DNA from: Shewanella woodyi ATCC 51908
GTDB taxonomy: Bacteria; Pseudomonadota; Gammaproteobacteria; Enterobacterales; Shewanellaceae
Assembly: GCF_000019525.1 (NCBI RefSeq)
Contig: NC_010506.1
Span: forward strand, 4,898,001-4,962,000
Reading direction: 5' to 3'
Length of the DNA stretch: 64,000 nt
Part shown: positions 1,584-24,490 of the stretch, piece after piece
Layout: each line of letters opens with the position of its first letter
Position numbering within the stretch: the first letter of the stretch is position 1
Position numbers and translations under genes: made by a program
Notes under the pieces: model-generated
Databases searched by the model: none
What the model saw: the letters and a program-made list of their open reading frames with translations, nothing else
What the model was told of the DNA's origin: nothing

Positions 1584-3711
1584 GTTCACCTCCCTTATTC
1601 TTTAGCAGCTCAACAATCACATTGCTGTATTCATCAAGAAACACGGTTTGATCAGGATGAATGACAATCGTAGTGCCTGTTTGCTCGATAATCGCAGGGC
1701 CGGAAAATGCCATCATCGGCTCCAGCAGATCACCGTCATATATTACCGAGGTATGCACGCCATCTTCGGCAAAGTCGACTTCACGCTCCCCTTTGATGGT
1801 TTCAGCAATCAAACGTCCGCTTTGCTGCTGTTTAGCTAACTTCACTTTGCCAACGTCCGCTTTGCCAACAAGATGCAATCCGACCAGCTCTATCTCATTA
1901 TCTAGGTTGTAGGTGTACTCCTGTTTATAGAGTTGCTGAAAAGACTCCCTGACTTGATCGATAGAACTCTCATTAAGTATCAATGGCAAAGGCACCTCAA
2001 TAGAGTGCTCCTGATTCTCATACCTAAATCTGCCGAAGAACTGAAATCGAGTATCTTTTGATGTGAAATTTTCACTAATAAACTCATCCGATAGCTCTTG
2101 GTACAGCTGCGCCATCTGCTCATTAATAAATACTAAGGTTTGATGTTCCCACGGACTTAAGTAGGTTAGTAATCTGTCTCTGCGAATATCAGACATCATC
2201 ATCCCCCAAGCGGAGAATACTGCGGCTGTTGCGGGGATAATCAATCTCTTAATACCTAGCTCTGCCGCCAGTGCTGCTGCATGCATGGCGCCACCGCCGC
2301 CAAATGCAACCATAGTAAAGTCTCGTGGATCATGGCCTCGATTGACCGAAACCAGCTTTAACGCATTTACCATATTGTTATTGGCAATCCGCACGATCCC
2401 CCGTGCCACATCTTGAGTTGAGATACCCATTGGTGCGGCAATCTTCTCTAAAGAGGTTTGAACACTGGCCATATCCGCTTTTAATTCACCGCCACAGAAG
2501 AACTCAGGATTAATACGGCCCAAAGCCAGATTGGCATCTGTGGTCGTTGGTGCTGTGCCGCCTTTGCCATAAGCAACGGGACCAGGATAAGCCCCTGCAC
2601 TTTGAGGACCCACATGAAGTTTATTAAAATCATCAACCCAAGCGATTGAACCACCACCATTACCAATTTCAACCAGATCAACCACAGGTACCATAATCGG
2701 ATACCCCGCGCTGAGATGACTTTTTTCGATGTAATAGTCTGAGGTAATTTTAACCTCGCCATCACTAATTAGTGCGCACTTGGCCGTGGTGCCACCAATA
2801 TCTAACGCAATGATATTGGGCTCATTGATTATTTTACCTAGTTCGGCAGCACCCCATATACCACTGGCGGGACCAGACTCCACCATAGTGATCGGAACCT
2901 GCTTAGCTGATTTTAAGGTATCTACACCGCAGTTAGACTGCATGACATAGAGCTGACCGGAGAAATCCTTCTCCTGTAAACCGTGATGCAAACGGCTTAA
3001 ATAACGCGAAGCGATAGGTTGCACATAAGCAGACAGAACCGTGGTACTCGTCCTTTCATATTCACGCCACTCTCGGGATATTTGATGGGAGCAGATAACC
3101 TCCAACTTATCCGTCAAAGCATTAATAGCGTTTGAAAGGAGAGTTTCATGTTGTGGATTCTTGTAGGCGTTCAATAAACAGATTGCCACAGCTTCAACGC
3201 CCTTATCCTCCAACTCCCTTATGATATTTGCCAAAGGGAGTAACTCTAATGCCTGAGTTACCTCGCCGTGATAATTAACTCTTTCATTAATCTCAAACCG
3301 CAAATGCCGCGGTACATAAGCTGGTGGTTTTTGGTAGTTAAGATTAAAGAAGTCAGGTCTGTTTCCTCGACCAATCTCCAGAACATCCCTGAAGCCTTGA
3401 GTGGTTATTAGCGCAGTTTTGGCGCCCTTCCTTTCAGTTAAGGCATTAATAACAACAGTAGTACCATGAGCCATCACATCTATCTGTTTGGCATCCACCT
3501 GTGCTTTGTCCATGACATTCAACACCCCCTGTTCAAAGTTGGGAGGAGTGGTATCTGATTTTGCCGTTTTAAGCTGCTGCCTTCCTGTTTTAGGATCCTC
3601 ACTTAAGTACACAAGGTCAGTAAAGGTACCGCCCACATCTGTCGTCACGAAGACCTTATCTTTTACCCTACCTTCCTTCATGATATTTTCCTCCTTAATC
3701 ACTGCTTTCAT
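1576..3711 (-). CDS. hyuA: Hydantoinase/oxoprolinase subunit A
   Basis: A subunit of the hydantoinase/oxoprolinase family, 711 residues, which supplies the actin/hexokinase-like ATP-binding fold. The N-terminal phosphate loop TTDVGGTFTDLVYL is near residues 23-36, AHGTTVVINAL follows near residue 82, and the second nucleotide motif ALDIGGTTAKCALI is near residue 300. A Gly-rich FGGGGAMHAAALA comes later. Two starts are plausible. The ATG at 3711 overlaps the TGA of the GAF gene (ATGA). A second ATG at 3681 has a stronger Shine-Dalgarno (AAGGAGG, 8 bases upstream). Together with HyuB and the upstream TonB receptor this looks like import and ring opening of a cyclic amide. Family membership is firm; the substrate is not. 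Confidence 0.94.
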   Translation of the reverse strand: MKAVIKEENIMKEGRVKDKVFVTTDVGGTFTDLVYLSEDPKTGRQQLKTAKSDTTPPNFEQGVLNVMDKAQVDAKQIDVMAHGTTVVINALTERKGAKTALITTQGFRDVLEIGRGNRPDFFNLNYQKPPAYVPRHLRFEINERVNYHGEVTQALELLPLANIIRELEDKGVEAVAICLLNAYKNPQHETLLSNAINALTDKLEVICSHQISREWREYERTSTTVLSAYVQPIASRYLSRLHHGLQEKDFSGQLYVMQSNCGVDTLKSAKQVPITMVESGPASGIWGAAELGKIINEPNIIALDIGGTTAKCALISDGEVKITSDYYIEKSHLSAGYPIMVPVVDLVEIGNGGGSIAWVDDFNKLHVGPQSAGAYPGPVAYGKGGTAPTTTDANLALGRINPEFFCGGELKADMASVQTSLEKIAAPMGISTQDVARGIVRIANNNMVNALKLVSVNRGHDPRDFTMVAFGGGGAMHAAALAAELGIKRLIIPATAAVFSAWGMMMSDIRRDRLLTYLSPWEHQTLVFINEQMAQLYQELSDEFISENFTSKDTRFQFFGRFRYENQEHSIEVPLPLILNESSIDQVRESFQQLYKQEYTYNLDNEIELVGLHLVGKADVGKVKLAKQQQSGRLIAETIKGEREVDFAEDGVHTSVIYDGDLLEPMMAFSGPAIIEQTGTTIVIHPDQTVFLDEYSNVIVELLKNKGGEHV

Positions 3712-4202
3712 AAAGAACTCTCCTGTAACACTGGCAATGAGAAGGCGATAACAAACCAGGGATACAGCGCCTCAAACTGTTCTAGGTCGCAATCTAGATA
3801 GGAGTTTTCACTTGAGAGAATATTAACTGTTCCAATCACTTTTCCCTCAACAATGACGGGCCAATTAATCACAGCACCTAAGCCCATGGATGAGATAAGC
3901 TGATGATCAAAAAACACTTCAGATAATGCTTTCTCAGTATTCGCGATAAAGGCTTCACCTTGTTCAAGAACCTGTTTACTCCAGTCATTAATCTCTATCT
4001 GTTTATACCCCCCAATAGGATACTGCTTAGGGGCAGAGCTATAGATCCGCTTAGCTTGTCCCCCCAGATGATCGATCTCTGTCAGCGTAAATAGTCTGAT
4101 GGAGTAGCCCTTAGCCAGCTCATTATTAAGCACTTCAAAGAAGAGATCTGCAGATACTTTTCTCAAGGAGTTAACTAAGGCACGTTGTAAAAAAGGCATC
4201 AT
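3708..4202 (-). CDS. GAF-domain-like protein between TonB receptor and hyuA
   Basis: A 164-residue soluble protein starting at the tandem ATG at 4202/4197. GGAG overlaps the end of the receptor gene upstream, and the stop overlaps the hyuA ATG, so it is embedded in the operon. Residues about 110-160 (GLGAVINWPVIVEGKVIGTVNIL and the acidic helix after it) resemble the C-terminal half of a GAF small-molecule-binding domain. No catalytic or DNA-binding domain is attached. By position it may sense or bind the substrate or product of the hydantoinase; that is inference. A longer start at 4280 is rejected because it would run deep into the receptor gene. Confidence 0.75.
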   Translation of the reverse strand: MMPFLQRALVNSLRKVSADLFFEVLNNELAKGYSIRLFTLTEIDHLGGQAKRIYSSAPKQYPIGGYKQIEINDWSKQVLEQGEAFIANTEKALSEVFFDHQLISSMGLGAVINWPVIVEGKVIGTVNILSSENSYLDCDLEQFEALYPWFVIAFSLPVLQESSL

Positions 4203-4204
4203 AA

Positions 4205-6403
4205 TTACTCCATATTCCAGCGCAGCTCGATACCAAAGGTTCGCTCTTGAGCTGGGTGAGCAAAGCCACCTAATACCCATTCAGCAAGGTACTCTTCGTT
4301 ACCTAGGTTTTTCGCCCAAAGGTTCACACTCCAATCACCTTCATCACGGTTAAAGCCCAACCGTGCATTGACTAAATTAATGGCATCACGGGCACTGGTA
4401 TTAGAGGGATCCCAATACTGCTCACCTCTTTGCTCCCAATCTAGTGTTAAAGTCGATAACCAACCACTAAAGAGTTCAGCATGGAACTGAGCACCTAAAT
4501 TAACCGTATACTCAGGTACGTAAGGGGCCTTATTTCCCACATCCGCAGGATTTAAGCTGTAAGCTTTAATTTCACTATCTGTAATACCAAATGAACCATA
4601 AAGGTCGATGTTGTCATGTAGCTCGGTCTTAAAATCAAATTCACCACCAATCAGGGATACCTCATCGATATTGGTCAATACCTGTGCCCCCAATGAACCA
4701 ACAAAAACAAAATAGTGTTGGTTATCGATACTGGTATTAAAAAGTGATGCATTAAAACGGGTAGATATATCTGGGTAGAGCCCCTTAATGCCTAGCTCAA
4801 AGTTACTGGACTCCTCCGCTTTATAGAGATCGCTTACTCCAGATAACCCAGCCGATGCAGCTAAGTCGCCCACACCACTTTGGTTAAAGCCACCACTTCT
4901 GAACCCTTCAGAGAAGTTGGCATAGAGGCTTAAGTTAGGTAAACCTGTGTAGACGTAGGAGACTTTAGGTTGGAACTTGCTGAAGGTCTCTTCGCGAACC
5001 TCACCTGAGTTCGAGTCAAAACTAACTGGAGCACGATTGGTTTGCTCTCGAGTATCCGAATCATAACGCCCCGATATGCTTAATTCTTGAGTATCTGTCA
5101 GGTCATAATTGAGTTGTGCAAATACCGCATAGGATTGGTTATCGTTACTGTCAGCTAAAAAAACGGTCGCTGGACTAATGTCATCATTCAGCGGTGGTGT
5201 CTTTTCAACTCTTGGGATCCCTTTGCCCAGATCTAAACCGTTAAAAGATGAAATAAAGCGATCAGTTTGCAGATAATAGAGACCCGCAATCCAACGTAGG
5301 TCACTGTCATCATCAGAGGTAAATCTCAACTCAGCACTTTGAGAGCTAGTATCTAAATATTGCGTTTGTACCCCATCAAATACATTTGGACCAAAAGGTG
5401 ATGTGGCCGAAGTATTACGGCTATAGGGGAACTGGTCACCGGATAGAAACTCAGTCAGCTCATCAGCTGAGAGGATAAGACCTGCCGTCACATCTGAGAT
5501 ATTCCAATCAAGCTTTAAAGAAGCCGAAGTGATTTGACGATCATTTTCACCGAGATTATTCGCCTCAATATTTAGACTGGCATCATTAGCATCATTAATT
5601 CCAAAGAGTGGCTGATAGATATAGTTAACCGCCCCTCCCTCAGTCTCTCCCCTCGCAATTCTTAGGTCGGCAGAAAAATCATCATTTGGCTGCCAGATAA
5701 ATCGACCTCGAATGTTTTTATCTTGTTGAAAATCGACCTTTTCATTCAGGTAAACATTATCAATCAAACCATCAAAATCTTTATAGGAAGCCGTTATGCG
5801 ATAGTTTAAAGTATCTGTCATAGGCCCACTTATCGCGCCAGACAAGGCTTTCAACCCCCCATTACCTAAATCTAGTTCAGCATAACCCGTTAACTCATCC
5901 GTTGGCGCTTTCGTGGTGATATTGATCGCACCACCGATGGCATTTCGCCCATAAAGTGCACCTTGCGGCCCCTTTAAGATCTCTATTTGCGCTATGTCAT
6001 AAAGATCCTGATTGAATTGATTAGGGCTGATTTGCAATACCCCATCAACCGATATGGCAACAGGTGACTCACCATTTCGAACCTGAGTCAGTCCTCTTAT
6101 GGTGATAAAACTAGTTCCAGCATTCTGAGCTTCAACCATGGTCATGTTCGGCGTCAGCGAGATAAAATCTGCTGCACGCTCAATCCCTAGATCTTCAATA
6201 TCCTGCTCGCCAAATACAGTGATAGCCATTGGTACTTCTTGTATATTCTCTTTACGCTGCCTAGAGGTGACCTCAATCACCTCCATCTCACTCTCTTGCA
6301 GTTCGCTCTCTTCAGCTTGCAGTGAAAAACTCACCAAAAGCAGGTTACTTATTGTCGCTGTCACGCATGCTCCAGCTGTTATAACTCTTGAAAATATGCT
6401 CAT
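4205..6403 (-). CDS. TonB-dependent outer-membrane receptor
   Basis: A 732-residue outer-membrane receptor for energised uptake of an unknown ligand. A signal peptide (hydrophobic stretch about 8-28, ending SLQAEES) is followed by a TonB-box-like MEVIEVTSR. The plug domain carries ITVFGEQDIEDLGI and GPQGALYGRNAIGGAINI. The beta barrel ends in an aromatic strand (ERTFGIELRW). GGGGGAG precedes the ATG. It is the first gene of the minus-strand operon with the GAF-like protein and hyuA/hyuB, so the ligand is probably the hydantoin-like or other cyclic-amide substrate. It is transcribed divergently from the LuxR/MalT-type regulator, the likely controller. Confidence 0.93.
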   Translation of the reverse strand: MSIFSRVITAGACVTATISNLLLVSFSLQAEESELQESEMEVIEVTSRQRKENIQEVPMAITVFGEQDIEDLGIERAADFISLTPNMTMVEAQNAGTSFITIRGLTQVRNGESPVAISVDGVLQISPNQFNQDLYDIAQIEILKGPQGALYGRNAIGGAINITTKAPTDELTGYAELDLGNGGLKALSGAISGPMTDTLNYRITASYKDFDGLIDNVYLNEKVDFQQDKNIRGRFIWQPNDDFSADLRIARGETEGGAVNYIYQPLFGINDANDASLNIEANNLGENDRQITSASLKLDWNISDVTAGLILSADELTEFLSGDQFPYSRNTSATSPFGPNVFDGVQTQYLDTSSQSAELRFTSDDDSDLRWIAGLYYLQTDRFISSFNGLDLGKGIPRVEKTPPLNDDISPATVFLADSNDNQSYAVFAQLNYDLTDTQELSISGRYDSDTREQTNRAPVSFDSNSGEVREETFSKFQPKVSYVYTGLPNLSLYANFSEGFRSGGFNQSGVGDLAASAGLSGVSDLYKAEESSNFELGIKGLYPDISTRFNASLFNTSIDNQHYFVFVGSLGAQVLTNIDEVSLIGGEFDFKTELHDNIDLYGSFGITDSEIKAYSLNPADVGNKAPYVPEYTVNLGAQFHAELFSGWLSTLTLDWEQRGEQYWDPSNTSARDAINLVNARLGFNRDEGDWSVNLWAKNLGNEEYLAEWVLGGFAHPAQERTFGIELRWNME

Positions 6404-15253: not shown

Positions 15254-16768
15254 ATGGCAATTACAGGCCCGACAATAACCGAGTTAAATTTGATCGCTAA
15301 AAGCCTCTGTATGGATTTATCAGACTCAGATTTAGAATTACACCTGTCGTTATTACAACCAAACCTTGCAGCTTATGAACTCATCGACTCACTTCCCGAT
15401 AACGTCCCTTTTGTCACTCATCCTCGAACAAGCGGCTATGAGCCAGATCTCGAACAAAATGAACTGAATGCTTGGCATAGAAAGGTATCAATTAAAGGAG
15501 AAAAGTCTGGCTTATTAGCTGGATACAAAGTTGTTTTAAAGGATAATATTTTTCTTGCTGGAGTACCGATGAACAATGGAGCATCAACATTGCAAGGATA
15601 TATTCCTGAATATGATGCAACGGTAGTAAGTAGGATCCTCAACGCTGGGGGCGAAATTGTTGGTAAAGCCCACTGTGAATATTTCTGCTTATCCGGTGGA
15701 AGTCACACCAACAGCAAGCACTCAGTCAAGAACCCATACAATCCGCTGCATTCTAGTGGCGGCTCCTCCTCTGGCTGTGGCGCCTTAGTTGGAGCAGGGG
15801 AAGTGGAGATGGCAATAGGCTGTGATCAAGGGGGATCCATTAGAATTCCCGCCTCTTGGTCTGGTTGTGTTGGCATGAAACCCACCTGGGGTCTAGTTCC
15901 TTACAGTGGAATAATGCCTATTGAAAATACCATCGATAATGCTGGGCCTATCACCAATAATGTGGAAAACAACGCTAAATTATTACAAGCCATAGCGGGT
16001 CATGATGGCCTAGATCCAAGGCAATATCGGCAGGGAGTCGATGATTATCTTACCAGTTTAAAGTCCAATATAAACGATCTTAAAATCGGCATATTAACTG
16101 ATGGATTTAACCGTCCAGAATCAGAAGAAGACGTCGATAAAGCAGTGTTAGATGCCATACAAGTGCTTTCAAAACTTGGCGCCAGTATTGATGAAGTATC
16201 CACCCCTTGGCATAACATTGGACAATCTATTTGGCTAGCTGTGGCACTTGAAGGCTTAACCGACCAGATGATGCTAGGCAATGGCATGGGGCGTGGCTGG
16301 AAAGGCTTGCACAGCACCAGCTTAATTGACCGCCATTCAAGCTGGCGTATGCGAGCTAATGAACTACCAAATAATCTAAAGTCTTGCCTACTCACCGGCC
16401 AGTACATGCTTGAGAAATATAATGGCCACTTCTATGCAAAAGCACAGAACCTAAGCCGCCGTTTAACCGATGAATATGACAAGCTTCTGTCACATTTTGA
16501 CATCTTAATCATGCCAACTACCCCCATGAAAGCAACACCAATCCCGACTGCTGACGATGATGAGGCTCTGCATGTGCAGCGAGCCTTTGAAATGATAGGT
16601 AACACCAGTCCATTTGATACCACTGGCCACCCGGCATTATCTATACCCTGCGGAATACGAAACGGTTTACCCGTTGGAATGATGTTAGTTGGCAATCATT
16701 TTGATGAAGCAACCCTGTACCGGGCTGCACAAGCCTATGAGCAAAGTACAGATTGGAAGGCCGTTTAG
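15254..16768 (+). CDS. Amidase (amidase signature family)
   Basis: A 504-residue amidase hydrolysing an amide to acid and ammonia or amine. The Ser-cisSer-Lys triad is visible: Lys96 in YKVVLKDNIF, Ser171 in SSGGSSSGCG, and nucleophile Ser195 in CDQGGSIRIPASWSG. The numbering matches, as I recall it, Rhodococcus enantioselective amidase, and the N-terminal helical extension (residues 1-80) is also of that type. AGGAG precedes the ATG. It is followed by a TonB receptor on the same strand and faces an acyl-CoA synthetase, making a compact amide import, hydrolysis and activation set. No nitrile hydratase genes are nearby. Confidence 0.93.
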   Translation: MAITGPTITELNLIAKSLCMDLSDSDLELHLSLLQPNLAAYELIDSLPDNVPFVTHPRTSGYEPDLEQNELNAWHRKVSIKGEKSGLLAGYKVVLKDNIFLAGVPMNNGASTLQGYIPEYDATVVSRILNAGGEIVGKAHCEYFCLSGGSHTNSKHSVKNPYNPLHSSGGSSSGCGALVGAGEVEMAIGCDQGGSIRIPASWSGCVGMKPTWGLVPYSGIMPIENTIDNAGPITNNVENNAKLLQAIAGHDGLDPRQYRQGVDDYLTSLKSNINDLKIGILTDGFNRPESEEDVDKAVLDAIQVLSKLGASIDEVSTPWHNIGQSIWLAVALEGLTDQMMLGNGMGRGWKGLHSTSLIDRHSSWRMRANELPNNLKSCLLTGQYMLEKYNGHFYAKAQNLSRRLTDEYDKLLSHFDILIMPTTPMKATPIPTADDDEALHVQRAFEMIGNTSPFDTTGHPALSIPCGIRNGLPVGMMLVGNHFDEATLYRAAQAYEQSTDWKAV

Positions 16769-16844
16769 TTCCTCAGAGACTAAAGGTTCAATTTTTATCG
16801 CTCGTTATTCTAACAATAAACAACTAAAAGGAATGATTAATATT

Positions 16845-19121
16845 ATGAATCGATTAATAAATATAACTCTAATAATCTCAATCTCTTCCGTTACACTCCC
16901 AGTGCTAAGCAATGACTCGGAAATAGAAGTTATTGAAGTAAGAGCTCAAAAAAGAGTACAGCCTTTGCAAAAAGTCGGCATCACTATGGCCGCATTTGGG
17001 GAGGAACAGCTAAAAGAGTTAGGTGTAACCGACGTAGTTAATGTCGCTGCAAATGTGTCAAATGTTCAAGTCAACTACGGTCTAGGCAATAACTTTTTCA
17101 ACATACGAGGATTAGGGCTAAACGAGTTTACCTCTAACCTAGATGCACCAGTTGCAGTTCATGTAGATGAAGTTTATATGAGCAAGGGCTTTATGACGGG
17201 AATGACACTATTTGATATTGAACATGTAGAAGTCCTTAAAGGCCCACAGGGGGATCTTTTTGGTCGCAATACCACAGGTGGGGCCGTTAACTTTTTTACT
17301 AACAAACCTACATCCTACTTTGAGGCTGGAGTCAGTGTTGGATATGATAACTATGACACCTTAACCACAGAAAACTTTATCTCTGGCCCTTTGTCTGACA
17401 ACCTTTCTGGACGATTGTCCATGTATATAACAGAGCAAGGTGAGGGCTATTACTACAACACCAATCGCCAAGACGATGAAGGGGCCGTAAAAGAGAAAGC
17501 CGTTCGTGGCCAACTCTTATGGGAAAATGATGACGGAACATCTGCTCTATTGTCAATGCACTATGGTAAGGATAAATCTGAACTTCATCCCTATGAAGGG
17601 GTAGGCAATACCTTACCCGATGGAAGTGGTTTTTGCCCTGCTTACTTAGATGGAACCGTGCAAGGGGATAATGCCAATTGCTTACGAGGTTTAGATCTTA
17701 TTTTCAATCCAGGCCAAGATATTAGTCAGTACTACCCAGGAGAAAGTGATCCCTATATCACTCAAAATAACCTGAGCTTTACCGTCGATAATGAAAGCAT
17801 AGGCGGGTTAGTCAGAATAGAGCATCAACTTGATAATGCTACCCTCTCCTCTATCACCGCCTATGAGCAATTCAGTCAAGATCAACGTGAAGACTCAGAT
17901 GGTAGCCCTGTGACCTCTGTTGAAGTTTATTGGTTCACCGAATTTAAGCAGTTTACTCAGGAGATCAGGTTGTCATCAGATTTTGATCATAACAACTGGA
18001 ACTACATTGTTGGATTATTCTATGAACATGATGACTTCGATAACGCAGATTATTTAACGGCATATTTACCGTTCAATGGACTCAACAATTACTCAAAGTA
18101 CAACCAAAAAGTCGATGCAGTAGCTGCATTTGCACATATAGAAAATGAGTTAACGGAAGATTTAAGATTAATTAGTGGCGTTCGATACAGTTGGGAACAA
18201 ACTAGCTTAACAGGGGGAACTTATAAAGGTGAGGGGCTGAAATCAATAGGAGGGGAAGAGCAACCTGTCACCATCACGGGAGTTGCATCTACCGCAGCAA
18301 ACCTTAGCGATGGCGGCCAACGAACCGATGAAAACGTCACATTTAAAGCTGGGTTAGAGTGGTCACCTCAAGAAGATGTACTCTATTATGGCTCAATCTC
18401 TACAGGGTTTAGAAGCGGTGGCTACAGTGTGGCTTTTGCTGCAACACAAGATGAACTCACCAGTTTAGAGCCCGAAGAGATCACCGCTTATGAGATCGGA
18501 TTTAAATCTACACTAGCCGATAGGAGCTTACAATTTAACGGTTCAATTTTCCGTTATGACTTCCAAAATGGTCATATTGATGTTGATGCGCCTAACTCTC
18601 CGGTACCAATTACCATTAATGCTGCTGAAATTGAAACAATCGGAGCAGAGATTGATCTTCAGTGGGTACCCATTGATGGGTTAAAACTCAGTTCAGGTGT
18701 TGGTTGGGTCGATGCAGAATTAAAAAGCGAGTTAACCTTACAAACAGGTATTGGGGAAGTTCAACTACAGGGGAATCGTCCTGCATTTAATCCTAAATAC
18801 ACCTACAATGGGCAGGCACGCTATGTGTGGGAGCTACACGATGGTTATGATCTGATTTTTGCCAGTGATTGGAGCTGGAGAGATGAGCAATATCTCGAAG
18901 TGAATAACCAACCTAGTAATTTAATTGACGACTATTGGATCGTAAATGCACGTATTGCACTGGAGTCAACCGAAAATGATTGGCGTATCTCTTTATGGGG
19001 AAAAAATATCACTGACACTCAGTACGTGACTTACCTCAATGATCTGCCAGCATTTGGTTGGTTACTTCGTGGTTATGGTGCTCCATCGACCTACGGCGCA
19101 ACATTTGAAATGAAGTTCTAA
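16845..19121 (+). CDS. TonB-dependent outer-membrane receptor
   Basis: A 758-residue receptor counted from the ATG at 16845, where a signal peptide begins (MNRLINITLIISISSVTLP). AAAAGGA lies about 11 bases upstream. An in-frame ATG at 16689 overlaps the amidase and is not the start. A TonB-box-like IEVIEVRAQKR follows the leader. The plug has ITMAAFGEEQLKELGV and GPQGDLFGRNTTGGAVNFF, and the barrel ends YGATFEMKF. It follows the amidase by 76 bases and probably imports the amidase substrate or a precursor. A good terminator follows. Confidence 0.92.
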   Translation: MNRLINITLIISISSVTLPVLSNDSEIEVIEVRAQKRVQPLQKVGITMAAFGEEQLKELGVTDVVNVAANVSNVQVNYGLGNNFFNIRGLGLNEFTSNLDAPVAVHVDEVYMSKGFMTGMTLFDIEHVEVLKGPQGDLFGRNTTGGAVNFFTNKPTSYFEAGVSVGYDNYDTLTTENFISGPLSDNLSGRLSMYITEQGEGYYYNTNRQDDEGAVKEKAVRGQLLWENDDGTSALLSMHYGKDKSELHPYEGVGNTLPDGSGFCPAYLDGTVQGDNANCLRGLDLIFNPGQDISQYYPGESDPYITQNNLSFTVDNESIGGLVRIEHQLDNATLSSITAYEQFSQDQREDSDGSPVTSVEVYWFTEFKQFTQEIRLSSDFDHNNWNYIVGLFYEHDDFDNADYLTAYLPFNGLNNYSKYNQKVDAVAAFAHIENELTEDLRLISGVRYSWEQTSLTGGTYKGEGLKSIGGEEQPVTITGVASTAANLSDGGQRTDENVTFKAGLEWSPQEDVLYYGSISTGFRSGGYSVAFAATQDELTSLEPEEITAYEIGFKSTLADRSLQFNGSIFRYDFQNGHIDVDAPNSPVPITINAAEIETIGAEIDLQWVPIDGLKLSSGVGWVDAELKSELTLQTGIGEVQLQGNRPAFNPKYTYNGQARYVWELHDGYDLIFASDWSWRDEQYLEVNNQPSNLIDDYWIVNARIALESTENDWRISLWGKNITDTQYVTYLNDLPAFGWLLRGYGAPSTYGATFEMKF

Positions 19122-19155
19122 CGACAAATTCCCCCCAAAAACACCAAACAGTATT

Positions 19156-19190
19156 AAATACCGTTAAGCAGTAATTTACGGTATTTTTTT
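19156..19190 (+). terminator. Intrinsic terminator after TonB receptor
   Basis: AAATACCGT (19156-19164) pairs perfectly with ACGGTATTT (19178-19186) and is followed by further Ts. It lies 35 bases past the receptor stop, ending the amidase-receptor transcript. Confidence 0.75.
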
Positions 19191-19239
19191 AGTTATATGA
19201 ATTAGGAATAAAGGAGTAAAAAGAGAACAAAGAAAACCA

Positions 19240-20313
19240 TTAATAACCAATACGATGCAAAGGTACAAATCTATTATCTTTCGCTTGGACAATAAACACA
19301 TCTGCCTGTACATTTTTATTTAATAAGGTTATCTCACCTCTTGGACTGTGAAAGTTAACTGCCGACATCGATGTTTTTTCTATATCGTGAGTCTGTAAGG
19401 ATTGACTACGCTGCGCAAGGTCAGCCAACAACATGATCCCTTCATAACTCGAAACACTGATCTGATTAAGCCCAGGTGCCAAATCACCAAAGTTATTATA
19501 ATAAAGCTTATTAAAGTTTTGAGCTTCGTTAGTTTTTAAGCCTTCGAAATAGCCCATTGATGAAAATAAATTACGACTATTTTCACTACCAACCGCATAC
19601 AACATGTTCTCTTCGATCGCACCACAATATCGGATGATTTGGCTATCTAACCCTCGCTGAGCAAACTGTCGATTAAAATCAATGGCTCCTTCACCAAGTA
19701 AATTAATAAACACAACATCAGGTTTGCTCTGCTCTATACGCTCAAGTGTACTAGAAAAGTCCTTGCATTTCAGTGGCAACAGTTCATTCGCGACTACCTC
19801 TCTATGTCTGGAATACAAAAAATCGATAGCAGAGGAATGGGTTTTAGCTGGCCAAATATAGTCACTCCCCACAAAAAACCAACGTTGAGATGTGACATTG
19901 GAGCAGAGCCAATCTAAAGTCGGCAACACACTTTGCTCAGTGGTGAGCCCTGTAAGGTACATGCCAGTACCTTGATCACCGCCCTCATACATAGGGGTAT
20001 AGATGTAAGGCACCTTACCTTTAATGGCATTGGCAACCTCTTTACGAACATCACTGGTGTGAGTACCAACTAAAGCAGATAGTTGACCAGAATTCACCTT
20101 AGCAGAGACCTCTTTGACCACGTTACTAGGCTTGAGACTGGCATCAATAAACTCTAGTTCAACCTTACAATCGAGTATCCCACGGTAGCTATTCAATTCT
20201 GCAGCGGCCAATATAGAGCAGGCTTCACAAGAGTTCCCCCAAAGCCCTATGGGACCACTAAAGGGCAACAGTACACCAATGTTGACGGTTTGATTATCTA
20301 TTTTTTTATGCAA
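19240..20313 (-). CDS. AmiC-like type I periplasmic-binding-fold ligand sensor, no signal peptide
   Basis: A 357-residue protein of the branched-chain amino acid/amide-binding fold (AmiC/FmdD/UrtA group). The opening VNIGVLLPFSGPIGLWGNSC, then LVGTHTSDVRKEV and VPYIYTPMYEGGDQGTGMYL, follow that family closely. There is no signal peptide or lipobox: the first residues are MHKKIDNQTV, so it should stay in the cytoplasm, as AmiC does in Pseudomonas. AmiC senses amides and restrains the antiterminator AmiR, but no AmiR-like gene is visible here. It lies between the amidase operon and a divergent MarR regulator, so an amide-sensing role is likely. No ABC permease or ATPase genes accompany it. Confidence 0.85.
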   Translation of the reverse strand: MHKKIDNQTVNIGVLLPFSGPIGLWGNSCEACSILAAAELNSYRGILDCKVELEFIDASLKPSNVVKEVSAKVNSGQLSALVGTHTSDVRKEVANAIKGKVPYIYTPMYEGGDQGTGMYLTGLTTEQSVLPTLDWLCSNVTSQRWFFVGSDYIWPAKTHSSAIDFLYSRHREVVANELLPLKCKDFSSTLERIEQSKPDVVFINLLGEGAIDFNRQFAQRGLDSQIIRYCGAIEENMLYAVGSENSRNLFSSMGYFEGLKTNEAQNFNKLYYNNFGDLAPGLNQISVSSYEGIMLLADLAQRSQSLQTHDIEKTSMSAVNFHSPRGEITLLNKNVQADVFIVQAKDNRFVPLHRIGY

Positions 20314-20503
20314 ATTATACCGCCATAGCTAGCAGAGAGTACCGTTATACAACCCTATGAGCCGATGACCCACAGTGAATTGCTCACTTTATATACTGTA
20401 TTGGATTGATAGCTATTGTTCAATAAATTATAATCCTTTATAGTTTATTCCAGATATAGAATATCTTATTGTGAAGTTAAAAACTGATTCAAAGGGTCAA
20501 TAA

Positions 20504-20956
20504 ATGAGTCCTACTGCAGGTAATTTAAAGTCAGAGCTAGCTAAACTTTTAGTTCAAAATGAACGTCTTTTAGACAAAAAACTAGAGTCAGCCTTACAGC
20601 AAAGAAAAAAAACGCTTGGTAATGTGCAGTGGCGAATACTCACCAATCTTATTGAAGCCAGCGAAGGCTTAAGCATGAAAGACCTATCTCTATTGACCCA
20701 CACCAACGATTCAACCCTGACGAAAGTGGTTGATAAGCTTGTCAACGACAGCTTGGTATATCGTCGACCTCATCCAAAAGACAGACGAAAAATACTTATC
20801 ATCAGCAGCAGTAAAGGTAAGGCACTCCATGCCAAGCTAGAAAGTGATGTGAATCAATGCTATGAAAAAATGTTTGAGCCACTATCAGCACAACAGATGA
20901 AGTCTTTACAGAATATTTTACAGACACTAAACAATGAAGGTTCTCTGACTCTGTAG
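20504..20956 (+). CDS. MarR family transcriptional regulator
   Basis: A 150-residue winged-helix regulator. The recognition region is LTHTNDSTLTKVVDKLVNDS with the wing LVYRRPHPKDRRKILIISSS, both typical of MarR. It is divergent from the AmiC-like gene, with 190 bases between them. That AT-rich spacer (20314-20503) must hold both promoters, but I could not define a clear palindrome. A role in controlling the amidase/AmiC-like region in response to an aromatic or amide ligand is plausible but inferred from position only. Confidence 0.88.
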   Translation: MSPTAGNLKSELAKLLVQNERLLDKKLESALQQRKKTLGNVQWRILTNLIEASEGLSMKDLSLLTHTNDSTLTKVVDKLVNDSLVYRRPHPKDRRKILIISSSKGKALHAKLESDVNQCYEKMFEPLSAQQMKSLQNILQTLNNEGSLTL

Positions 20957-21150: not shown

Positions 21151-21996
21151 TTAATCTTCATTTGAAGTCGACATAGCATCATTTCGTATCGATTCTAGCT
21201 CAGCATAAAGATACTCAGTAAAGAAACCATGCATCAGAAAACGTTGACTTAAATTCCAAGGGCCAACGAGGTAGTGTGGGTATTTGTTGTAGGCCATCTC
21301 CACTATCTCAGGCTTACCGATAATACGACCGATGCGGATTGCGATAGATTGATCTAAGTTAAAACCGTTGATCGCATCTCGATATTCGTCCCGCTTAAGT
21401 AAAAAACAAAAAAGGCACATAAACAGCGCGTGAGCAGTTTCAAAGTCAATAACTTGAGTTAGCTTTCTATCAAGTTCAAATGCCTTCATATCTATCTTTT
21501 GCCAGTGCTTCCATTTCAGCTTTGTACGCGCAATTTTCTGAGCATCTTTTGCATCTCCCAAATGATAAAAGGCATCAAATAGCTCTTGATCATGCTTCAC
21601 AAAGGTATCTCGAATCATGTCGTCGACACACTTTGGGTACAGATCAACAACCACCTCTTTGCCGCTGTTTTCGGCTAAAAAGTTAATCACATTAGACTCG
21701 GTTGAGAAGTGCCTAAGGATTAACAAATTGGCTTCAGGCGAAACGAGATTTTTGCAGAACCAGCAGATCATCTTTTGCAGTAATGAATGCCCACTAAACT
21801 GAGGGAGCGGCAACCTTTTGAAGAACCAAGTTAAGTGCAGCAAAATAGCAAAAAGGAACTGTAATATTGGCCTCAACGTCCAACGAAATGGGTTATCCAG
21901 ATCTTTAACCCAGAGATCAACCGCGGCTTTTTCAATCGGTAGTGAGTTGTCGCTCCCTATCGCTCGTATAAATGCACTCTGCTCTTTATTAGACAT
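21151..21996 (-). CDS. Unknown protein in KAS III / diiron operon
   Basis: A 281-residue protein from the ATG at 21996, which has a strong GGAGG 6 bases upstream and overlaps the preceding gene by 8 bases. I do not recognise a named family. A hydrophobic segment around residues 40-60 (LRPILQFLFAILLHLTWFF) suggests a membrane anchor or acyl-binding surface. The rest is helical and charged, with LILRHFSTESNVINFLAENS and a C-terminal NLSQRFLMHGFFTEYLYAEL. It is the last gene of a four-gene operon with a ketoacyl synthase, a diiron-type oxidase and a His-rich membrane protein, so it probably serves the same lipid or metabolite pathway. Confidence 0.8.
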   Translation of the reverse strand: MSNKEQSAFIRAIGSDNSLPIEKAAVDLWVKDLDNPFRWTLRPILQFLFAILLHLTWFFKRLPLPQFSGHSLLQKMICWFCKNLVSPEANLLILRHFSTESNVINFLAENSGKEVVVDLYPKCVDDMIRDTFVKHDQELFDAFYHLGDAKDAQKIARTKLKWKHWQKIDMKAFELDRKLTQVIDFETAHALFMCLFCFLLKRDEYRDAINGFNLDQSIAIRIGRIIGKPEIVEMAYNKYPHYLVGPWNLSQRFLMHGFFTEYLYAELESIRNDAMSTSNED

Positions 21997-22672
21997 GGTC
22001 AACCTCCTCCAATTGAAGAATATAGAGCCTAGCAACCACTTTCGCGGTTCGCTCAATCGCTTTTATTGCTCCATCATCAACAGCAACACGATCCACCAGC
22101 TTGTAGAGTTCCTCAAGATGATGTTCATCATTTTCACCGTGATAACGCATAAATTGGGTCGCCTCTTTGGGTAGCTCAAGCTGCTCCTCAACCAGCTGGG
22201 CCCATTTGCTTGCCATCTTGTTGCCAAGCCCCTCAATGATCCACATGGCACCAATGAGATCCACAGGGTTCTCTTGGCTCGCTCGATACATCAAAAAGCC
22301 GTGCAGCGCCTCTGAGCCAATATTCTTACTGCTATTTTGGATCACATCGATGTCGCCACCAACAGCAACATAATCGCTCTCCAACATAAGAAAATCTTTA
22401 TGTTCATCTTTGGCATGGCCAATCACAATTGAGCGAACATCGGCATACTCTCGGTTAAAGCTCGATGCACAACGGGTGATCCAGCGTGAGCCCTCTATCA
22501 CCTGCTGACGTAGGTTTAACAGCAGTTTTTGGTAATCTTCATGGCTCAAGCGGCCCTGCTCTAAACGTTTAACAATAGGGGCCTTAGATAGCGCCAGATC
22601 AAAATCAAACCAGACTTTAAGTAATGACTGAAGACAAGTTTGGCCAGAGGTTGTTAATACATGTGCAGTCAT
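21989..22672 (-). CDS. Heme-oxygenase-like diiron oxidase family protein
   Basis: A 227-residue all-helical protein of the iron-containing redox enzyme group (heme-oxygenase/TenA/CADD fold). Possible metal ligands are Glu60 (QQVIEGSRW), His86/Glu90/His91 (GHAKDEHKDF), Glu147 (WIIEGLGNK) and His178, Asp182 and His185 (RYHGENDEHHLEEL). The H-x3-D-x2-H spacing matches CADD-type diiron proteins as I remember them. Relatives oxidise fatty acids, amino acids or small molecules using O2 (UndA makes 1-alkenes). It sits 3 bases after the KAS III-like gene, so an acyl chain or acyl-derived product is the likely substrate. Reaction unknown. Confidence 0.85.
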   Translation of the reverse strand: MTAHVLTTSGQTCLQSLLKVWFDFDLALSKAPIVKRLEQGRLSHEDYQKLLLNLRQQVIEGSRWITRCASSFNREYADVRSIVIGHAKDEHKDFLMLESDYVAVGGDIDVIQNSSKNIGSEALHGFLMYRASQENPVDLIGAMWIIEGLGNKMASKWAQLVEEQLELPKEATQFMRYHGENDEHHLEELYKLVDRVAVDDGAIKAIERTAKVVARLYILQLEEVDHV

Positions 22673-22675
22673 GAT

Positions 22676-23782
22676 CTACTCCACTACCGTTAAATGCATA
22701 TAAGCACAATTAAATCGGCCACTTTCAGGCACCATACAAAACAGGGTTTCACCAACAGATAAATCCTGTGTCGCGAGAAACTCATCCAACATAATAAAAA
22801 TAGACGCGCAGCCCGTATTTCCCCTTTCATACAGGTTTGTGTACCACTTCTTCTCAGGGATCTGCACTCCAGCAACCTCAAGCATCTCAACGATTTTGCT
22901 TTTAAAGTAGGCCGATGAAAAATGACATAGCACATGATCTATCTCAGGCACTTTGAACATCCCATCTTGTAATAGCTTTAAGAAGCCATTGACTCCGACC
23001 GAGACAATATTATCGAGTAGGCGAACATCTTGACGTAGCAGCAAGGCCCCCGCTTGCTCAGCCTCACTGTACGTTGGAAAGTCTTGCCAGCTTTTAGTGG
23101 CATTTTTAGGCATCCCCACCGACATACACACTGGGTATACATCCGCATGAGAAAAGCTTTTAATCCAATCAATTCTTAAGCTTTTTCCTGTTTTTCTTGG
23201 TTGGTTCTCAAGTAACAAGGCCCCAGCACCATCAGACAACATCCAACGCAAAAATTCAGCATTGAAGTCTATCTCGTTCCCCTCAACTTGCTCATAACGA
23301 GTATGTTTAAACAGGCGGGAGGCTAATTCACTGGCGATAACTAAAGCGTTAGCAGACTCCTGCGCCTTAATATTGGTATAAGCCGATTTAAGTGCCATCA
23401 TGCTGCTGGAGCAGATCCCATGACTCGTCTGTAACTCAACAGAAGGGATATCTAACTCAGCTTGCACCATGCTGCCAAAGCCAGGTAACACCAGATCCCC
23501 TTGGCTGGTCGCCACACTGAGCATCTCTATCTGATGAGGCGAAATATAGCTAGCATCTAAACACTTAATCCCAGCATGTGCGGCCATTTCGCTGTTTGAT
23601 ATTTGCGTCTCTTGCTGTTGATTAATCGCATAATGGCGCGTTTTTATGCCATTAGATTGCAATATTTTATGTTTAAGCCGGCTTTTTTTTCCATTTACCA
23701 AGCCTAAAATATCTTCTATCTCATCATTATCAATCGGCGGCCCCGGCAGGTAATGCCCTGTACTGTTAATGTAAACATTCAC
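22676..23782 (-). CDS. Beta-ketoacyl-ACP synthase III-like enzyme
   Basis: A 368-residue thiolase-fold condensing enzyme. The Cys-His-Asn triad of KAS III is visible: Cys124 in TSHGICSSSMMALK, His287 in HVLCHFSSAYFK, and Asn322 in YERGNTGCASIF. It differs from housekeeping FabH in length (about 50 residues longer) and in its N-terminal insert with GLVNGKKSRLKHKI, so it is a specialised FabH relative of the kind found in secondary-metabolite clusters. Its start overlaps the stop of the His-rich membrane protein gene (ATGA), showing tight coupling. It probably condenses an acyl-CoA or acyl-ACP starter with malonyl-ACP; product unknown. Confidence 0.9.
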   Translation of the reverse strand: MNVYINSTGHYLPGPPIDNDEIEDILGLVNGKKSRLKHKILQSNGIKTRHYAINQQQETQISNSEMAAHAGIKCLDASYISPHQIEMLSVATSQGDLVLPGFGSMVQAELDIPSVELQTSHGICSSSMMALKSAYTNIKAQESANALVIASELASRLFKHTRYEQVEGNEIDFNAEFLRWMLSDGAGALLLENQPRKTGKSLRIDWIKSFSHADVYPVCMSVGMPKNATKSWQDFPTYSEAEQAGALLLRQDVRLLDNIVSVGVNGFLKLLQDGMFKVPEIDHVLCHFSSAYFKSKIVEMLEVAGVQIPEKKWYTNLYERGNTGCASIFIMLDEFLATQDLSVGETLFCMVPESGRFNCAYMHLTVVE

Positions 23783-24345
23783 TTTATTGCCCTCGATTTA
23801 ATGGTCACTCGAATACATCGAATATTTTCCTCAATGTAGGGAAATACACAGACAATCGACATGAAGCTTAAATAGGTCAGCAGATAACCGCTGCCGCCAT
23901 GTGGGGTCTCCACAGGCACAAGCGACATATTCCCTTCCCAATTAAAGGTGACTAAGTTTATGAATTGTGGCCAGTTAATAATAATGATAGTGATTAACAT
24001 ATACATGGGAAGTGTCCCAAGATAGTTATGAGCATGCATCTCCCAGATCGAAATCTCTCTCTTTGGAGAGGCATATCTCACATCAGCGTGGGCAACGATC
24101 TCGTGCAGTATCCAAGTCAAAAAGCAGATAATTAAGATGAGGACGTTAACCATATACAGCAGACATAACACCATGGGGATAGCGATTTGAATCCCCATTA
24201 ATGAGTGCATTAGGGTCTCTTTAACCCCTGAAGTGTGCTCTATTTTTGTTGCTCTATGACAAAACCAATCTGCTAATCCCGCAATGCCCCATATTGGCAA
24301 TAACATAAAAAGCAAAAAGTTAATCAGTAGCTGTGACGTATCCAT
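23779..24345 (-). CDS. Histidine-rich multi-pass membrane protein
   Basis: A 188-residue protein with about four hydrophobic helices. Histidines sit at membrane edges: H30-x6-H37 (WFCHRATKIEHTSG), H47, H81-x4-H86 (LHEIVAHADVRYA) and H104-x-H106 (EMHAHNYLG). Clusters like these resemble the metal sites of membrane fatty-acid hydroxylases and desaturases, though the protein is short and I cannot name the family. Automated labels for such proteins vary. It is first in the operon, before the KAS III-like and diiron-type genes, which supports a membrane-bound oxidative step on a lipid. Function is inferred. Confidence 0.8.
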   Translation of the reverse strand: MDTSQLLINFLLFMLLPIWGIAGLADWFCHRATKIEHTSGVKETLMHSLMGIQIAIPMVLCLLYMVNVLILIICFLTWILHEIVAHADVRYASPKREISIWEMHAHNYLGTLPMYMLITIIIINWPQFINLVTFNWEGNMSLVPVETPHGGSGYLLTYLSFMSIVCVFPYIEENIRCIRVTIKSRAIK

Positions 24346-24490
24346 GTCACCGTTTCCTTAAGCGTTTATTCCAACCTTGTTAGACACGTTAACATCCCTA
24401 TATCAATTTGTAAGTGAAAAATCATTAATCTCCATGCCCATAAGATCATGGAAAGTAGAGTTAACTCAATTAATTAAATCTCAAATTTAA

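Follow-up and report, generated by a model that had tools for sequence, protein, structure and literature searches.

What is made by an operon in which a carbon-carbon bond-forming enzyme stands beside a likely oxygen-using metal enzyme? Such an operon lies in the genome of Shewanella woodyi ATCC 51908, within the stretch of 64,000 nucleotides analysed here (NC_010506.1, positions 4,898,001 to 4,962,000 of the forward strand; hereafter the window). In order, its genes encode a membrane protein (MEM), a ketosynthase (KS), a heme-oxygenase-like dimetal oxidase family protein (HDO) and a member of the DUF6999 family. The four genes fill 3.2 kb of the minus strand, from 24345 to 21151; MEM and KS overlap by 4 bases, KS and HDO are 3 bases apart, and HDO and DUF6999 overlap by 8 bases. 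These coordinates, frames and junctions had been read in a first-pass annotation of the letters alone, and all were correct on rereading. We conclude that the four genes probably form one dedicated cassette, spread across many marine and salt-loving bacteria, that makes an undescribed lipid-like compound. Such a product is likely because the conserved operon joins a carbon-carbon bond-forming ketosynthase, of a kind known to make rings, to a likely O2-using metal enzyme and two proteins without an assigned function. The features referred to below are:

23779..24345, minus strand: MEM, first gene of the operon, a predicted integral membrane protein of 188 aa (no Pfam or NCBIfam match; AlphaFold2 model)
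22676..23782, minus strand: KS, a StlD/DarB-like beta-ketoacyl synthase of 368 aa with a GTG start (PF08541 and PF08545; match to StlD, 5gk0)
23411..23413, minus strand: codon of the KS catalytic Cys124, with partners His287 and Asn322 (codon reread; StlD alignment)
21989..22672, minus strand: HDO, a heme-oxygenase-like dimetal oxidase family protein of 227 aa (PF14518; profile match to 3dde)
22394..22417, minus strand: HDO helix motif H86-x3-E90-x2-D93 (reread in the sequence; 3dde and MboA alignments)
22118..22141, minus strand: HDO motif H178-x3-D182-x2-H185 (reread in the sequence; conservation counts)
21151..21996, minus strand: DUF6999 (PF22523), 281 aa, all-helical model (Pfam, 305.7 bits)
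24346..24490, minus strand: leader between the operon and an upstream AraC-like gene (placed by position only)

Do the four genes belong together? The first-pass annotation had proposed looking for the same neighbours in other genomes, and they recur. A DUF6999 profile search of named genomes gave 349 relatives, of which the best 80 were kept, so the most distant relatives fall outside these counts, and the loci counted are related and hence non-independent. The complete MEM-KS-HDO-DUF6999 set was present in 77 of the 80 loci, in 76 of them collinear on a single strand and in one, from a Myxococcota metagenome-assembled genome (MAG; L092), in rearranged form; the remaining three (L036, L076 and L103) are short, or a contig end cuts the cassette or the contig starts inside it. 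Gaps of 30 bases or fewer separate MEM from KS in 73 of the 76 ordered loci, KS from HDO in 71 and HDO from DUF6999 in 73. Identity to the window proteins falls as low as 54-60% among conserved loci, which argues that the arrangement is not merely recent. By record title the 80 loci come from Shewanella, Colwellia, Pseudoalteromonas, Rheinheimera, Arsukibacterium, Halomonas, Billgrantia, Reinekea, Vibrio and others. Clustering of 1150 open reading frames (ORFs) from 83 loci found no widespread fifth operon gene; the next cluster reached 16 loci, of which the 12 listed all belong to Halomonas or Billgrantia. The distribution is patchy. With the genome of the window itself counted each time, 8 of 117 genomes in the genus carry MEM, and DUF6999 turns up in 6 of 274 from the class and in 9 of 398 from the phylum. 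DUF6999 was also found in 1 of 118 genomes of the order to which G598 belongs. On one contig (C95 of G052; L009-L011 and L134) DUF6999 is broken into three pieces and the KS next to it is a fragment carrying one stop, which looks like a cassette in decay.

What kind of ketosynthase does the cassette carry? The protein matches PF08541 and PF08545, Pfam models that indicate a KAS III fold. Its closest solved relative is StlD (5gk0, E 2.8e-76), with which Cys124, His287 and Asn322 align, each invariant in 88 of 88 rows, the window included. The best NCBIfam model is StlD/DarB (NF005293, 391.8 bits, below the cut-off of 450). Against NF053539 it scores 352.6 bits, under a cut-off of 550 that none of 185 genomes reaches and below which the DarB-like loci used here likewise fall. 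For a tree of 43 rows (8 DarB-like KS, 23 separate cassette KS, 7 fused KS and 5 FabH; StlD and OleA-type KS were absent), the DarB-like set was 8 of the 9 strong loci without DUF6999 from the search of the class (447-533 bits), G104 being left out. The 8 DarB-like KS form one side of a 100/100 branch, and the cassette KS lie outside it. The fused KS (100/100) and 21 cassette KS (100/98) group at 97/93; the KS of L119 joins this group at 91/79 and that of L022 is unplaced, both on long branches. Fifty-one positions are fixed in all 8 DarB-like and at least 29 of the 30 cassette KS, with the same residue at 50; the sole difference is position 102, Phe versus His. We rejected a generic FabH/KAS III identity because a long branch separates KS, together with DarB, from the five FabH rows. 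Thus the earlier description of a KAS III-like enzyme with a Cys-His-Asn triad stands as to fold and catalytic residues, but by its sequence the enzyme is a relative of the StlD/DarB synthases and not a plain FabH. According to PMC4578411, enzymes of this class condense a beta-ketoacyl thioester with an unsaturated acyl thioester to give 2,5-dialkylcyclohexane-1,3-diones.

The family of the KS also bears on a different route, in which KS would join two chains head-to-head to an open-chain beta-keto acid, HDO would decarboxylate it oxidatively to an unsaturated ketone or alkene, and MEM would tailor the chain. Both kinds of enzyme have precedents: UndA, itself an HDO, decarboxylates fatty acids (PMC13108848), and head-to-head ketosynthases of the OleA type exist (PMC4578411). 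However, the cassette KS is DarB-like at 50 of the 51 jointly fixed positions and is placed nearer to DarB than to FabH, from which it is far removed, in a tree that holds no OleA-type KS. We consider this route quite unlikely.

If KS is DarB-like, does its usual partner accompany it? In Azoarcus, DarB is the dialkylresorcinol (DAR) cyclase and DarA the DAR aromatase (PMC3949708). A gene of about 305-340 aa, labelled DarA-like here from its place beside DarB and the published darB-darA order, adjoins KS in all 8 DarB-like loci fetched, and HDO, DUF6999 and MEM are found in none of them. Conversely, seven DarA-like queries, run at E 1e-3 against L020-L119, the 100 loci fetched (89 distinct DUF6999 places, 87 of them with KS and HDO), gave no match; as a control, these queries recovered all 8 DarB-like loci. 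One query likewise found no DarA-like gene in the whole cassette genomes G000 and G224, and did match in two DarB genomes, G131 and G157. The absence therefore holds for the stretches fetched and for two cassette genomes searched in full. The DarA-like protein also has three Streptomyces plasmid matches, all called hypothetical.

The divergent layouts tie HDO to KS more closely still. Ten genomes with a distant DUF6999 were expanded, leaving out G052 (fragments only) and G739 (L113, which duplicates L034). KS and HDO lie beside DUF6999 in nine of these ten loci, and no BLASTP match to MEM at E 1e-3 was found in any of the nine. Seven (L020, L021, L114-L118) encode KS and HDO as a single polypeptide, and L022 and L119 encode them as two proteins. 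Directly upstream of KS in five (L020, L114-L117) stand relatives of FA_hydroxylase and FA_desaturase, the Pfam assignments having been made on the L020 pair and on the L118 desaturase. As side observations, the DUF6999 gene of the tenth locus (L120) adjoins what reads as an IS3-like transposase gene, so a disrupted cassette is possible there, and L119 carries, 21 bases past DUF6999 on the same strand, an ORF of 1133 aa with an MFS-transporter-like start (2697-6098), which we take to be possibly a fusion of the LplT-Aas type.

The fusions, and the way in which the cassette and the DarA-like gene exclude each other, together suggest that HDO, jointly with DUF6999, takes the role of DarA in acting on what KS makes. 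They also weigh on the proposal that the operon is a membrane-lipid or stress module, in which MEM would modify membrane acyl chains and HDO would be protective, as is reported for DtpC, rather than biosynthetic. An HDO-domain protein does limit oxidative stress in dried Acinetobacter (PMC13232832), but here HDO is tightly coupled and fused to a KS of the two-chain type, and the patchy presence of MEM within the genus fits a specialised metabolite better than a housekeeping function. We regard such a module as very improbable. Another possibility is that the product is an ordinary dialkylresorcinol, a known compound type, with HDO and DUF6999 serving as an O2-dependent analogue of DarA. The shared KS class and the missing DarA-like gene would fit this idea. 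Yet three other proteins, MEM included, have been kept although the published scheme gives aromatisation to DarA alone, a point that is suggestive only, and we think the explanation unlikely.

Could HDO act on such a product? It matches PF14518 at 34.6 bits, above the cut-off of 28.9, and for a profile built from 24 HDOs 3dde was a strong match (E 3.7e-12) and MboA a weak one (E 0.14), so that transfer of ligand positions rests on one strong alignment and one weak one. The diiron ligands of MboA are His89, His172, His181, Glu86, Glu143 and Asp176 (PMC13185094). The cassette HDO keeps E90, E147, H178, D182 and H185, that is, five of the six canonical ligand positions. The motif H178-x3-D182-x2-H185, already noted as diiron-type on the first pass, is invariant in homologs (each residue in 90 of 90 rows), as are D93 (89/89), H86 (88/88) and E90 (88/88). 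Neither of the two outcomes that would have told against the first-pass reading, a gene set scattered elsewhere or diiron ligands that vary in close homologs, was observed. In the alignments E90-x-x-D93 lies opposite E-x-x-H of MboA and E-A-G-H of 3dde; the MboA letters, matched by pattern, are presumably Glu86-x-x-His89-Asp90. With Asp93 at a His position, the site would either be of a 2-His/4-carboxylate type or use His86, which might substitute for the canonical His. For comparison, a review describes most HDO ligand sets as three His and three carboxylates and a smaller subset as three His and four carboxylates (PMC13108848); the canonical 3-His/3-carboxylate set is not present in the cassette HDO.

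What could the other two proteins contribute? MEM has six invariant His (30, 47, 81, 86, 104 and 106) and seven invariant acids (D26, E43, E82, D88, E102, E172 and E173), each in all of the 77 or 78 rows with a letter. Its AlphaFold2 model (pLDDT 93.7) has five long helices, and D26/H30, E43/H47, H81/E82/H86/D88 and E102/H104/H106 stand at the ends of the first four helices or close to them, much as the first pass had placed its histidine clusters. The model suggests that these residues make one predicted metal site near one membrane face. MEM has no Pfam or NCBIfam match, and fold and profile comparisons tied it to no known fold or family. PF04116 was matched by 1 of 32 homologs (E 0.65), and hhalign against the FA_hydroxylase and desaturase profiles gave probabilities of 0.2% and 0.5% over shallow alignments. 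A resemblance to the ADP/ATP carrier 9j3n (E 4.1e-5) covers only about 60 of 586 residues and was set aside as probably a match of composition; PF03219 appears in 2 of the 32 homologs (best E 6.1e-4). Homologs are often named 'diguanylate cyclase' in NCBI and UniRef; those among P0001-P0120 have 184-210 aa and no precomputed Pfam domain, and the name is probably a propagated misannotation.

The product of the fourth gene, which the first-pass annotation had left unrecognised, does have a family: it is DUF6999 (PF22523), matched nearly full-length at 305.7 bits against a cut-off of 27. The all-helical model (pLDDT 89.2) gave no clear fold or profile match. Residues H96, H135, D136, D184, D215, H256 and E261 are invariant in all rows with letters and could bind metal. 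That DUF6999 is a hidden HDO was unsupported: the top Foldseek match is the HDO PolF (E 0.55, TM 0.15), and hhalign against the HDO profile gave 0.1%.

How, then, might the product be made? In our favoured reading, held a little short of an even chance, a DarB-type condensation is followed by O2- and metal-dependent oxidation by HDO, which replaces DarA, and MEM and DUF6999 perform further steps. From the observed gene identities, conservation, synteny, fusions, absence of a DarA-like gene and residue conservation, we infer the chemistry of each step, which metals take part and what the product is. KS would take two acyl thioesters, most probably one beta-ketoacyl and one unsaturated acyl chain, out of ordinary fatty-acid metabolism, join them and close a ring of the 2,5-dialkylcyclohexane-1,3-dione type, which in the classical pathway DarA aromatises. 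That the cassette holds no acyl carrier protein or ligase fits a KS drawing on the cell's own fatty-acid pool. HDO would take this product directly and, as its family works with O2, oxidise it in an O2-dependent manner, either by dehydrogenation to a resorcinol or by hydroxylation. DUF6999 may act at the same stage, as partner or second enzyme. MEM may carry out a further metal-dependent step at the membrane, on a membrane-soluble product, and in some genomes a fatty-acid hydroxylase and desaturase upstream of KS may stand in its place. A bolder version, possible but more tentative, makes the cassette a new branch of two-chain lipid condensation: KS would hand its product to a linked O2-activating metalloenzyme with Asp for His at the first iron, and MEM and DUF6999 would be two new metalloenzyme families completing an undescribed, heavily oxidised product.

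Several observations weigh against the favoured scheme. HDO is without one canonical His ligand, having Asp93 where His89 of MboA and the corresponding His of 3dde lie. KS scores below the curated StlD/DarB cut-off (391.8 versus 450), so its substrate and product may differ, and the cassette has no gene for an acyl carrier protein. The DarA-like proteins gave no NCBIfam match (E 0.001) and no Pfam match above cut-off in the five of seven queries scanned. The profile comparisons, with their shallow alignments, gave no sign that MEM is related to FA_hydroxylase or desaturase, so their proposed role as its replacement is positional only; moreover, no membrane gene was found in three of the nine loci without MEM (L021, L022 and L119), and L118 has only a partial desaturase. 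Finally, in L120 (G074) DUF6999 occurs without KS or HDO in 14 kb. On balance, the first-pass proposal of a dedicated lipid or small-molecule pathway is nevertheless well supported by the conservation of the cassette, the KS family, the fusions and the absence of the DarA-like gene. The two metal-dependent oxidations that it envisaged fared unevenly: HDO has the metal-site pattern with one His-to-Asp change, but MEM has ligand-like residues and no oxidase kinship was found for it.

The surroundings of the operon add some observations on its expression. The leader (24346..24490) probably holds the promoter, judging by position only; a sigma-70 scan, whose total of 3 sites was below the shuffled mean of 8.1, gave none upstream of MEM. 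In Halomonadaceae loci (e.g. L074, L080, L088 and L094) a palindrome-like CGAACAnnGTTTnnnAAC lies about 50-90 bases upstream of MEM, with at most 2 mismatches in 19 of 19 (shuffled mean 0.06), a count inflated by shared descent because the loci are related; AAACnnnnGTTTGCA occurs there without mismatch in 7. This palindrome may resemble fatty-acid operators of the PsrA type. A different promoter-like block, CTACAAAnnATTAACC...TATAGTA, lies upstream of MEM in Rheinheimera and Arsukibacterium loci and two unplaced MAGs (L050 and L062), in 20 of 20 related loci with at most 4 mismatches (shuffled mean 0.00). Adjoining the operon in the window (15254-20956) are amidase-like, TonB-receptor-like, periplasmic-binding-type (resembling amide regulators) and MarR-like genes, named from reading their translations only.

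Why does the cassette matter? It gives context to two families without a function, DUF6999 and the MEM proteins that databases name 'diguanylate cyclase'. It predicts new O2-dependent chemistry, HDO acting on a KS product, and points to a compound still to be identified in many marine and halophilic bacteria. A search limited to an open library of papers found no description of a KS-HDO-DUF6999 pathway and no match for the term 'DUF6999'. The nearest known pathway makes dialkylresorcinols, which PMC4578411 reports as cell-cell signals in Photorhabdus. With only four genes in 3.2 kb, the cassette is directly testable.

Compared with the DarA/DarB/DarC pathway and StlD (5gk0), the cassette shares the KS class, the catalytic triad and the residue at 50 of 51 jointly fixed positions, but it has HDO, DUF6999 and MEM, and in some genomes KS-HDO fusions, and it lacks a DarA-like gene. 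Like the HDOs UndA, MboA, SznF and CADD, its HDO matches PF14518, with E90, E147, H178, D182 and H185 at ligand positions; it differs in that Asp93 replaces the canonical His and an invariant His86 stands four residues before E90. MEM resembles the membrane fatty-acid hydroxylases and desaturases (PF04116, PF00487) in being His-rich, in the membrane and encoded upstream of KS, as these are elsewhere, but its His spacing is different, and profile comparison over shallow alignments showed no similarity to them. Pfam assigns no function to the DUF6999 family (PF22523), whereas here the family is tied to a ketosynthase and an HDO.

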